Of a DNA stretch of 64,000 nucleotides, positions 1 to 9,461 are shown one piece after another (position 1 is the stretch's first letter; every line of letters starts with the position of its first letter). This stretch comes from an uncultured Clostridia bacterium. Its GTDB lineage: Bacteria > Bacillota > Clostridia > Christensenellales > CAG-917. The position numbers and the translations under genes were made by a program. The stretch lies in the NCBI GenBank assembly GCA_944349635.1, contig CALVNH010000003.1:64727-128726 (forward strand), in the 5' to 3' direction. The notes under the pieces were generated by a model. It was not told the DNA's origin. It was given only the letters and a program-made list of their open reading frames with translations, and made no database searches.

Positions 1-1191
1 CGAATAGACGATACGCAGATTGTTGTCCAGCACAAGCTGGTCGTACTCCGCCTCTCTGTTTGCGGGAATGTAGAGCGCAAACGAAGCGAAATTGTAACCG
101 CTGTTCAAAAAGCTGCTCGGCACTATGGCAACGGAGTTGGACCCCACGCTGACGGTCGGACATCTGGACGAATCGTTGTCGTAATAGGTGTTGACCATAT
201 TCAGGAAGATATAGTCGGACTCATACTGTTCGCGTTTGCCGGAATCGGGATAATACAGATAGCGCGTGACTATTCCGTAAGAATTGTTGTAATAATAGGT
301 GTAATCCTCGGTGGAAGAAGAGCCCCACTCTTCATGAACGTAAAACTTTCCGTTCCCGAGATAAGTTGCTTCCGTGTAATACTTGGTGTGGTCGTCTGCG
401 GCGGCATAGGTGCCGAAAGCGGGCGCCTTGACATCGGGAGAAGCGGAAGCCGTCTGCGGCACGGAATAGATGTAGGACGACACTTCCTTGTCGGAGTTGG
501 TGTATTTGACGGTCACGTACTTGTCGTCGAACGCGAGAAGATTGTCGAGACTTTTGGAAGGATTGTAGACCCTGCACGCGAGTTCACCCGTGGAAGCGCG
601 GTAAATCGGAGTGTAAAGCGTCACGCCTTCGGCGCGGCACGCGACGTCGTAAAGAGGATTCACGGCGACGAGTTCGGAATCGAGGATTCTGATTGCGTCG
701 TAGATTTTGACGGAGGAAGTCACACCCGCGGTTTTGGACAGCGAAATCACTTCCCTGCCGTTTGCGTCAAGCACGCCGACCTTTTCGCCGCCCGTGCGCA
801 CCGCAATCATTCCGCACTCGACGTCGATTGCCTGCACGGCAACGTAATCGGCAATCAGCAAATCACCCACCGTCTTGTCCGTGCCCGCCGTGGATTTGAT
901 GACGGAGAGATTCTTGGTGGAGGAGTTCTCCACGATATAGCTGTCCAGCGCGCGGATATACCCTATATCGGAATCGCCGTGTCCCGACGTGGAAGTCAGC
1001 ACGGTATAGCCGTTGGGCACCACCACCTGCAACGCCGAACCGTTCAGCTGCGAATAGGAGGAAACCCCGCGGTAAATCTCACCGATGGAAGGATACTTTT
1101 CTCCTCCGAACTTGTCACACCCCGCAAAAGCAAAAGCGGCACACGCAAGCACAAGCACGAGCACCAACACGGAAAGTCTTTTCATTTTCAT
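1..1191 (-). CDS. Secreted lipoprotein of unknown function (C-terminal end lies beyond the window)
   Basis: An open frame of at least 397 codons runs off the left edge without a stop. It begins MKMKRLSV with a hydrophobic run and a lipobox ending FAGC (Cys25), so it should be lipid-anchored outside the membrane. The mature part is rich in Tyr, Ser, Val and Asp. A segment around residues 100-130 (VGVLDANGREV) resembles a WG/beta-propeller-type strand pair, but I recognise no family. Its ATG overlaps the recO stop as ATGA, with AAGGAG seven bases upstream, so it is probably translationally coupled to recO and is the distal gene of the yqfC-recO operon. The lipobox and start are seen directly; function is unknown. 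Confidence 0.85.
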   Translation of the reverse strand, partial: MKMKRLSVLVLVLVLACAAFAFAGCDKFGGEKYPSIGEIYRGVSSYSQLNGSALQVVVPNGYTVLTSTSGHGDSDIGYIRALDSYIVENSSTKNLSVIKSTAGTDKTVGDLLIADYVAVQAIDVECGMIAVRTGGEKVGVLDANGREVISLSKTAGVTSSVKIYDAIRILDSELVAVNPLYDVACRAEGVTLYTPIYRASTGELACRVYNPSKSLDNLLAFDDKYVTVKYTNSDKEVSSYIYSVPQTASASPDVKAPAFGTYAAADDHTKYYTEATYLGNGKFYVHEEWGSSSTEDYTYYYNNSYGIVTRYLYYPDSGKREQYESDYIFLNMVNTYYDNDSSRCPTVSVGSNSVAIVPSSFLNSGYNFASFALYIPANREAEYDQLVLDNNLRIVYS

Positions 1192-1883
1192 CTTTGCTCC
1201 TTAAAGTAACTGCCGTCGGGACGCACTCCGAGAGTGCGGTACACGAAATCGGCAAGCATTATGTTTGCTCTGTTTTTCAGGGAATCGGGAATTTCGCGGT
1301 TCTCGCCCGCAAGGAAAGCGCGGGAAACGGCGTCGATTTTTATGCCGTCGAAAGAGGCGCAATGCGGACACACGACGCCGTCCGATTCCGAATAAGAAGC
1401 GTCGCCGTCCAGAATGCAACGGCAAGCGGAGCACGCGGAAAAATCCAGTCCAGCACCGTTGTCGTTGAGCGTATGCAACAAAAAATCGCACACGGCGTCC
1501 GCCGCGGCTTTGTTTTCGTACGCCATTGCTTTCAGTTCGTTCACGGAGTGTAAAAAGAGGGAGGGTTGCGCCTCGGGAGAAAGCCTTGCCAGCATTTCGA
1601 GAATCAGACACGCCGCATAATACTTGTCGATGTCCGCCGTTATCGGCGAAAAGGAATCGTACTGCACGCAGTCCGTGACTATGTATCTGTCGCCCTTGCC
1701 GCTCAGCATATACTCGCCGAAGTTCATCGGCGCCGCGGCATAGCGCAGTTTTGCGCCGGGTTTCAGGCAACTTTTGGCGGACGCGGTAAGCTTTCCCTCT
1801 TCGAGGGAAACGAGGGTCAGAATCAAATCAGCTTCGCGGTACGGCACCGCTCTCGTCACTATGGCTTTTACCTTCTTGTCCAT
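1188..1883 (-). CDS. recO: DNA repair protein RecO
   Basis: 231 aa, close to the usual length. RecO acts with RecF/RecR to load RecA on SSB-coated single strands and in family members binds the SSB C-terminal tip. The N-terminal OB-fold is recognisable (VKAIVTRAVPYREADLILTLVSLEEGKLTASAKS begins near residue 5). A four-cysteine zinc motif follows at about residues 151-176 (CSACRC then CPHC). The start ATG has GGAG five bases upstream. Its 5' end overlaps the small yqzL frame and its stop overlaps the start of the next lipoprotein gene. The era-yqzL-recO order matches Bacillus. Identification is firm. Confidence 0.96.
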   Translation of the reverse strand: MDKKVKAIVTRAVPYREADLILTLVSLEEGKLTASAKSCLKPGAKLRYAAAPMNFGEYMLSGKGDRYIVTDCVQYDSFSPITADIDKYYAACLILEMLARLSPEAQPSLFLHSVNELKAMAYENKAAADAVCDFLLHTLNDNGAGLDFSACSACRCILDGDASYSESDGVVCPHCASFDGIKIDAVSRAFLAGENREIPDSLKNRANIMLADFVYRTLGVRPDGSYFKEQR

Positions 1884-7766: not shown

Positions 7767-9461
7767 TCAAAACGGCAAATCGTCGCCGTCGGTATCGTCG
7801 CCGTCGTCGACGAATTCGTCACCGTCGTCGTAACCGTCGTCTTCCTCGGGAGGAGGTTCGGGAGCAACGTAATCGCCGTCCGTATCAAAAGGAGGTTCGT
7901 CTTCGTCGGTTTCGAAAGGCATGGCTTCGGAATCGGCTTTGACTTCCTTGTCGGCGAATATTTCGTCGGCGAATTTCTCCGCGACCTTTTCGGCGGATTG
8001 AGCCGCGACTTCGGTTTCTGCGGCGTCGCTTGCCTTTGCGCTCTCGGTGCTCTTTTTCAAGCCCCCCCTATCCTTCTCGACGGGTTCGGCAGGCGCCTTC
8101 GCCGCCGCTATCATATCGGGGTCGACGCATTCGCGGAAGGAAGTCGTGTCGCCGTCCCATTCCAGCAACACGTCGCCTACGGGACCGTTCCTGTTCTTGC
8201 GTATGAGCAACTTGACGAGGTTTTCGGGCACGGCTGGATTGAACCTGTTTTCCTTGTTCAAAAACATTACCATGTCCGCGTCCTGCTCTATGGCTCCCGA
8301 TTCACGCAGGTCACTGAGCATAGGCGTGTGCTGGTCGCGCTTTTCCACGTCACGCGACATCTGTGACAACAGAATAATCGGCACGTCGAGTTCCTTTGCG
8401 TATATCTTCATCTTGCGCGACATATCGCTGACTTCCTGTTGCCTGTTGTTGTCGCGCCCCGCCGCTCCCGCGTTCGTCATAAGTTGGAGATAGTCGATTA
8501 TGACGAGGTCGAGTCCGCGCTCTCTTTTGAGTCTGCGGCACTTGGAAAGAACGTCGGAAGGGCCGTTAAGGGAGTAGTCGTCAATGTACAACTGAGTTTC
8601 CGACAGCCTGCGGAAGGCGTCGTAAAGTTTGCCGTTGTCCACGGAGGACGAAAGTCCGCCGCGCATATCCATTTTGGTCAGAGAAACCTTGGACACATAG
8701 GACAGCATACGTTTTACCAGCAGTTCACCCGGCATTTCCAGAGAGAAAATGGCAACGGTCTTGTTATGGTTCAGACAGGCGTTTGCCGCGATGTTGAGCG
8801 CAAACGCCGTTTTGCCCACGGAAGGACGTGCCGCAATGAGCACCATTTCTCCGGGTTTGAGACCTCTCGTCATTCTGTCGAGAGAAGGGAAATCCGTAAA
8901 AATTATGTTCTTGGGCAAATTGCCGAGTTGCGCGTCCTGAATCTTTTTCATCGCGATACCCAGCGCCACGTCGGCTTTCACGAGTTCCTTCTGCGTGATG
9001 TCCTCTGCTATGGCGTAGACTTCGCGCTCCGCGTTGGCAAGAGCGTCGGTACCGCTCACGCTTTCGTAACCGAATTTCGCGATGTTGTTGCCTGCGTTTA
9101 TGACGCGCCTAATCAATGCGTCGCGCTTGACAATGTCGGCATAATGGTCTCCGCTTGCGGCGGAAGGCACGCTTTCGGCAAGCAGGTTGAGATACTCTAT
9201 ACTGCCCACTTCGTCCAACTTTCTGGACGTTTCCAAAGCGTCGGCGACGGACACGGTGTCGACGGGTTTCGACTCCTGTTGCAACGCGCGCATCGCCGCA
9301 AAAATCGTCCTGTTTGCGGCAAGATAAAAATCGTTCTCCCGCAAAATGGGAATGAGCATTTCAGCGGCGGTATCGTCGATGAGAATGGAGCCGAGCACGG
9401 CTTGTTCCGCCTCGATGTTGTTGGGCATGCCCTTAAAGGTCATTTTTTCTTTTTCTGCCAT
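7767..9461 (-). CDS. dnaB: Replicative DNA helicase DnaB with an acidic, SSB-like C-terminal tail
   Basis: 564 aa. The N-terminal helical domain is at residues 10-115. The RecA-like motor has Walker A ARPSVGKT at 211-218, the LIIDYLQLM Walker B near 320 and LSDLRESGAIEQDAD near 385. DnaB is the ring helicase that unwinds DNA at the fork and binds primase. The core ends near residue 450, as in typical DnaB of about 440-460 aa. A 115-residue disordered acidic tail follows, ending DDTDGDDLPF, which matches the SSB C-terminal tip (DDDLPF in Bacillus). Two earlier Pro-Phe dipeptides (AMPF, EPPF) lie in the tail. The start overlaps the upstream lipoprotein gene by 22 bases. Confidence 0.97.
   Translation of the reverse strand: MAEKEKMTFKGMPNNIEAEQAVLGSILIDDTAAEMLIPILRENDFYLAANRTIFAAMRALQQESKPVDTVSVADALETSRKLDEVGSIEYLNLLAESVPSAASGDHYADIVKRDALIRRVINAGNNIAKFGYESVSGTDALANAEREVYAIAEDITQKELVKADVALGIAMKKIQDAQLGNLPKNIIFTDFPSLDRMTRGLKPGEMVLIAARPSVGKTAFALNIAANACLNHNKTVAIFSLEMPGELLVKRMLSYVSKVSLTKMDMRGGLSSSVDNGKLYDAFRRLSETQLYIDDYSLNGPSDVLSKCRRLKRERGLDLVIIDYLQLMTNAGAAGRDNNRQQEVSDMSRKMKIYAKELDVPIILLSQMSRDVEKRDQHTPMLSDLRESGAIEQDADMVMFLNKENRFNPAVPENLVKLLIRKNRNGPVGDVLLEWDGDTTSFRECVDPDMIAAAKAPAEPVEKDRGGLKKSTESAKASDAAETEVAAQSAEKVAEKFADEIFADKEVKADSEAMPFETDEDEPPFDTDGDYVAPEPPPEEDDGYDDGDEFVDDGDDTDGDDLPF

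Follow-up and report, generated by a model that had tools for sequence, protein, structure and literature searches.

An SSB-like C-terminal tip on the replicative helicase DnaB of an uncultured Clostridia bacterium and its recurrence among relatives and in Bacteroidota

The replicative helicase encoded in the window, a 64,000-nucleotide stretch of DNA from an uncultured Clostridia bacterium, has an ordinary DnaB core followed by a long acidic tail that is predicted to be disordered and that carries a C-terminal tip like that of the single-stranded DNA (ssDNA)-binding protein SSB. The tip proved to be more widespread than first thought, being common among DnaB proteins of the genome's family and nearly constant in a sample of Bacteroidota. 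Our preferred reading, held with some reserve, is that a putative partner docks on this peptide much as other proteins dock on the tip of SSB.

The window DnaB and its genomic context

The dnaB gene (7767..9461, minus strand) encodes a protein of 564 aa that matches the DnaB profile TIGR00665 over residues 12 to 444 (447.9 bits; cut-off, 385.25). DnaB chains were its best matches both by sequence and by fold. In a PDB search, they aligned up to residue 448 at most, and one weak Twinkle match extended to residue 473. Relative to other DnaB proteins of TIGR00665, the window protein shares the core and adds a tail of 114 residues (451 to 564; with the stop codon, 7767..8111, minus strand), which was delimited by composition, pLDDT, and the DNA. 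By composition count, this tail contains 39 D/E and 10 K/R residues, and its last 50 residues contain 24 D/E and no K/R. AlphaFold2 predicted the core with confidence, while pLDDT was mostly below 50 from residue 454 onward, with a weak helix at residues 488 to 501 inside the tail; several rows of the input alignment carried extra residues ahead of the true start, owing to a loose start-choice rule.

The protein ends in ...DDGDDTDGDDLPF, followed by TGA. The tip D-D-L-P-F and the stop codon occupy 7767..7784 (minus strand), as supported by the DNA and by recurrence in relatives; the residues preceding LPF are acidic (DGDD), and Phe stands at the exact C terminus after Pro. The DNA coding for the end of the tail is rich in GAC, GAT, and GGC codons. 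Two internal Pro-Phe motifs, AMPF and EPPF, are located within the same tail (7887..7925, minus strand). The open reading frame (ORF) and the DNA thus agree with the preliminary description, which had reported an acidic tail past the helicase core, an end identical to the SSB tip DDLPF, and both internal motifs. Among the 46 nonoverlapping window ORFs of at least 150 aa, only DnaB has a PF end.

The genome holding the window is a 1.35-Mb draft of 17 contigs with a completeness of 89.36%. The existence of a separate ssb gene with a tip of its own, a point raised together with the tail, was confirmed, as the SSB of this genome (L001) ends in PIDDDLPF. Another protein of the genome (L002:1489-2142) carries two SSB-type domains but lacks the tip, and a further PF00436 match of similar frame length is present in many relatives. 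The genome's three matches to PF00436, the OB-fold ssDNA-binding domain, lie on contigs C1 and C9, and none was found on the contig of the window (C3). The neighborhood of dnaB looks ordinary. The recO gene, which encodes a possible tip receptor, is located on the same strand (1188..1883, minus strand; TIGR00613, 77.7 bits; cut-off, 48.7). Sequence reading identified an Era-like GTPase, a YbeY-like protein, and an HD-domain membrane protein as further neighbors, and PhoH-, YqfD-, and YqfC-like neighbors gave family matches that were all below the curated cut-offs.

DnaB ends among relatives of the genome

DnaB was detected in 58 of the 60 genomes searched, including the window's own, and ends were read from the retrieved loci; the two genomes without a match (G010 and G018) belong to the family. 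Among the 34 family DnaBs counted, 17 end in [LI]PF, 1 ends in LPY, 11 have another [LI]-x-[F/Y] end (LDY, IGY, LNF, LGF, or IEY), and 5 have no such end. The counts of DnaB ends, here and in the comparison sets below, leave out five loci with tails identical to rows already included (L121 to L125) and one with an open end (L057). When the letters of each tail were permuted, only 0.13 PF ends were expected, compared with the 17/34 [LI]PF ends found, a figure that ignores shared descent. Counted from the end, F or Y is the last residue in 29/34, L or I occupies position -3 in 30/34, and D or E occupies position -4 in 28/34. Internal PF motifs were also enriched in the family tails, with 43 found versus 11.35 expected from shuffling. 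On whether the tails of close relatives end differently, which the preliminary description regarded as decisive, the picture is mixed: of the 10 genomes of the genus, including the window's own, 7 keep LPF, but LPY, LDY (G001), and no such end (G007) occur once each.

Beyond the family, PF ends are rare. They were observed in 3/23 DnaBs from other families of the order, as APF or PPF, and in 0/30 DnaBs from a sample of the genome's own phylum, which consisted of the best-scoring 30 of 41 genomes, the lower-scoring ones being more divergent. Named loci outside Bacteroidota had a PF end in 2/69 cases, one of which (L138) has a tail resembling those of the window's family. The named records with the same tails as the family bear the titles uncultured bacterium, Clostridia, or Clostridiaceae; the group labels "Bacteroidota" and "own phylum" rest on record titles and search grouping.

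SSB ends in PF in 34 of the 35 family SSBs, the exception (G027) matching only profile positions 1 to 68. Over all relatives, this was the case in 57 of the 58 genomes read, the exception again being a partial match, and G025 and G058 yielded no SSB end. Covariation between the DnaB end and the SSB end was looked for in the relatives' genomes and was not found; within the family, DnaB ends vary independently of those of SSB.

DnaB ends in Bacteroidota

All six loci with Bacteroidota titles encode a DnaB with a PF end, and the sample examined comprised 61 genomes around one of them. Two loci, L187 and L277, represent one genome (G061), which was counted once among the six and once among the 61. 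A PF end was present in 53/61 DnaBs, compared with 0.87 expected from shuffled tails (shared descent being ignored), and the remaining eight end in FPI (two cases), LPI, VSF, VAF, VGF, SAF, and DGF. By position, F was found in 58/61 and P in 56/61, and an acidic residue (D or E) stands at -4 in 72% and at -5 in 70%. Ala or Val occupies position -3 in 44/61, a position filled by Leu or Ile in most of the SSB ends read. Farther upstream, at positions -7 to -15, the tails are not notably acidic (3 to 26% D/E). Internal PF motifs were not enriched (8 found versus 10.28 expected), so that the part conserved is the exact C terminus. Four Bacteroidota DnaB frames (L294, L295, L299, and L300) have lengths of 748 to 1245 aa, and their family match is spread over a stretched span, suggesting the presence of inteins.

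Constraint on the tip and number of origins

The last four codons of dnaB had lower pN/pS values than the linker both in the family (0.284 versus 0.448; 10 disjoint pairs) and in Bacteroidota (0.186 versus 0.42; 20 disjoint pairs). Similarly, 29 overlapping family pairs gave 0.198 for the last five codons and 0.438 for the linker. Linker identity was below 25% in 374 of the 561 family DnaB pairs; among pairs with such dissimilar linkers, agreement of the last three residues was 77% in Bacteroidota (722 pairs) and 38% in the family (374 pairs). Judged by these measures, the DnaB tip is recurrent and under constraint, with fewer amino acid changes than the linker in both groups. On the proposal that the tip is conserved while the linker is not, the evidence is divided: the linker is poorly conserved and the tip has the lower pN/pS, but [LI]PF ends 17/34 family DnaBs, compared with PF in 53/61 of the Bacteroidota sample.

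The tip probably arose at least twice, since trees of the DnaB core reject a single clade for both groups. In a core tree built from 56 hand-picked DnaB rows with the tails removed, the family and Bacteroidota each formed one clade (support of 100/99 in each case), and a joint clade was rejected (p-AU, 8e-7). FastTree analysis of 184 rows, a set that excluded very short and very long frames, required 15 changes of the PF state, with gain and loss not separated, and supported the family clade with a value of only 44.

Other proteins with the same ending

Five hand-picked Bacteroidota genomes contained 22 sites with the pattern [DE][DE]xPF followed by a stop codon (or TGG), versus 32 for a reversed-pattern control, and a looser pattern gave 56 sites versus 78 in the window's genus; neither set of genomes showed an excess over the control. 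Thirteen of the 22 Bacteroidota sites terminate ORFs of at least 100 aa, which encode five SSBs (assigned by sequence reading, one of them also by profile), four DnaBs, two DUF3127 proteins, one family-B DNA polymerase, and one Abi_C protein. The DnaB of the fifth genome ends in SDAAPF, which lies outside the pattern. As far as these assignments go, nearly all proteins with this ending in the five genomes picked bind ssDNA or act in replication. The DUF3127 proteins (PF11325; L343:1147-1515 and L351:1504-1881) have a DDLPF end like that of SSB and are possibly another kind of fork or ssDNA protein. The protein with the Abi_C (abortive infection) domain (L361:1504-2334) ends in WEDLPF.

In the window's genus, MurB ends in DDLPF in 5/10 genomes (L201, L225, L227, L229, and L234; L225 was assigned by Pfam and the rest by reading). 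A small protein with an EDLPF, DDLPF, or DDMPF end occurs in three genomes of the genus (L213, L240, L241, and L244), and the two of these four that were scanned had no Pfam match. The window's own genome additionally encodes a 267-aa protein ending in SEEDLPF (L232:1490-2290), likewise without a Pfam match. As MurB and the small protein also bear such ends, DDLPF alone is no proof of a role in DNA metabolism.

Candidate partners of the tip

One study (PMC10164576) describes how the SSB tip is bound: Phe enters a pocket, the carboxylate rests on a basic lip, Asp contacts a basic ridge, and the linker acts as a spacer. In E. coli, a Pro-to-Ser change in the SSB tip weakened RecG binding (23 uM; PMC10164576). 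Partners of the SSB tip in Bacillus subtilis include PriA, RecG, RecQ, RecO, RecJ, and DnaE (PMC3000357). The window genome encodes PriA (595.1 bits), RecO, and RecG (35% identical to E. coli RecG). The pocket of E. coli RecG has been described with the arginines R467, R474, and R614, and the residues aligned to these three in the RecG of this genome are K, Y, and T. Because these arginines are replaced, RecG is a weak candidate partner.

The helicase loader was considered both as a cause of the tip and as its partner. DciA was found in 0/60 genomes around the window, tipped or tipless (a Bacteroides control matched), and IstB/DnaC-type AAA+ matches were found in 60/60, although this family also matches DnaA and other proteins. 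Loader type as the cause of the tip was rejected, as no visible difference in loader set the relatives with a tip apart from those without. The loader gene was inspected in the window's own genome only (L335), where a DnaC-like AAA+ gene adjoins a DnaD-like gene according to Pfam; NCBIfam matches to a part of this locus were all below the cut-off. DciA has been reported in Bacteroidetes (PMC5109545). The two tipped groups thus seem to use different loaders, and for this reason the loader is probably not the partner of the tip. As the tip occurs both in a genome with a DnaC-like loader and in Bacteroidota with DciA, our guess is that PriA is the likeliest partner.

Function of the tip

The DnaB tip resembles the SSB C terminus (SSB-Ct) in that Phe, preceded by Leu and Pro, is the very last residue, acidic residues lie upstream, and the linker is poorly conserved and predicted to be disordered. 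It differs in being located on a replicative helicase without an OB fold rather than on an ssDNA-binding protein and in that Pro and the residue at -3 are less constant in DnaB than in SSB. Phage T7 gp2.5 has an acidic C-terminal tail with a terminal aromatic residue that contacts replisome partners. The DnaB tail is likewise acidic with an aromatic end, although gp2.5 is an ssDNA-binding protein and not a helicase. No description of an SSB-like tip on DnaB was seen in the literature searched, which was limited to open-licence PMC articles and makes this a weak absence.

The ligand-side features of the SSB tip (terminal Phe, carboxylate, Asp, and linker) are all present in the DnaB tail, and we infer that the DnaB tip would bind a pocket of the SSB-tip-receptor kind. 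The proposed docking element sits at the end of a long acidic tether predicted to be disordered and consists of acidic residues followed, often by way of Pro, by a last aromatic residue whose carboxylate is free. A DnaB hexamer would display six such tips, which would hold at least one fork-maintenance protein beside the helicase instead of spreading it along SSB-coated DNA. Competition of the DnaB tip with SSB, also envisaged in the preliminary description, is unlikely in bulk, as six tips per hexamer would face the SSB tips of one fork, which may number at least about 60 (PMC3000357). With such numbers, the DnaB tips would matter by position and not by number.

The docking idea gains from the recurrence of the tip, its exact C-terminal position, its slower change relative to the linker, and the presence of a separate tipped SSB. 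Against an SSB-like reading stand the differing DnaB ends of several relatives in which SSB stays LPF or IPF, the DDLPF end of MurB (not a DNA protein) in half of the genus genomes, the preference for Ala or Val at -3 in Bacteroidota, the weaker RecG binding of the E. coli SSB tip once its Pro is changed to Ser, the absence of the RecG pocket arginines, and tip-pattern counts below those of the reversed controls. The main rival is a partner specific to DnaB, such as the loader, the clamp-loader tau, primase, or the helicase ring, with the likeness to SSB reflecting convergence on an acidic-hydrophobic-aromatic-carboxylate pattern. We regard this alternative as possible but doubtful. It would account for the range of DnaB ends (LPF, LPY, LDY, IGY, LNF, LGF, and IEY) beside SSB ends that stay LPF or IPF and for the Ala or Val mostly found at -3 in Bacteroidota, as well as for the excess of internal PF motifs in family tails, for which a pocket that depends on the carboxylate offers no explanation. 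It fits less well with loaders that seem unlike between the tipped groups (DnaC-like versus DciA; PMC5109545) and with the near confinement of the ending to ssDNA-binding and replication proteins in the five Bacteroidota genomes.

It is also conceivable, but quite improbable, that the acidic tail acts as a polyanion, either as a DNA mimic or as a self-inhibitor of DNA binding by the ring, and that its PF end is incidental. The predicted disorder of the window tail and the charge of its last 50 residues are in keeping with such a role, and the RNA chaperone Hfq is reported to be regulated by acidic C-terminal domains (PMC5606850). Yet exact-end PF is far above the shuffled expectation, pN/pS is lower at the last four codons than in the linker, and the Bacteroidota tails carry few acidic residues at -7 to -15. 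An origin by chance or as an artifact of a low-complexity tail, as the GAC/GAT/GGC-rich coding sequence and the incomplete draft genome might suggest, is very hard to maintain in view of recurrence in many genomes of two separate clades, and chance of composition is rejected on the grounds of that recurrence (17/34 versus 0.13; 53/61 versus 0.87).

Implications for the replication fork

In bacteria, SSB is regarded as the hub at which fork proteins are collected through its C-terminal tip. If the docking reading is true, the helicase would serve as a docking platform in its own right in most of the Bacteroidota sample and in some Clostridia. The finding would then bear on fork restart in bacteria that, as far as is known, lack the bridging factors used for replication restart in E. 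coli. We tentatively propose that in Bacteroidota and in the uncultured Clostridia family, DnaB may form a second SSB-like hub, one that arose at least two times, in which six tethered tips would keep restart or repair proteins, with PriA as the first candidate, at the fork independently of SSB-coated DNA and may replace the missing bridging factors of replication restart.
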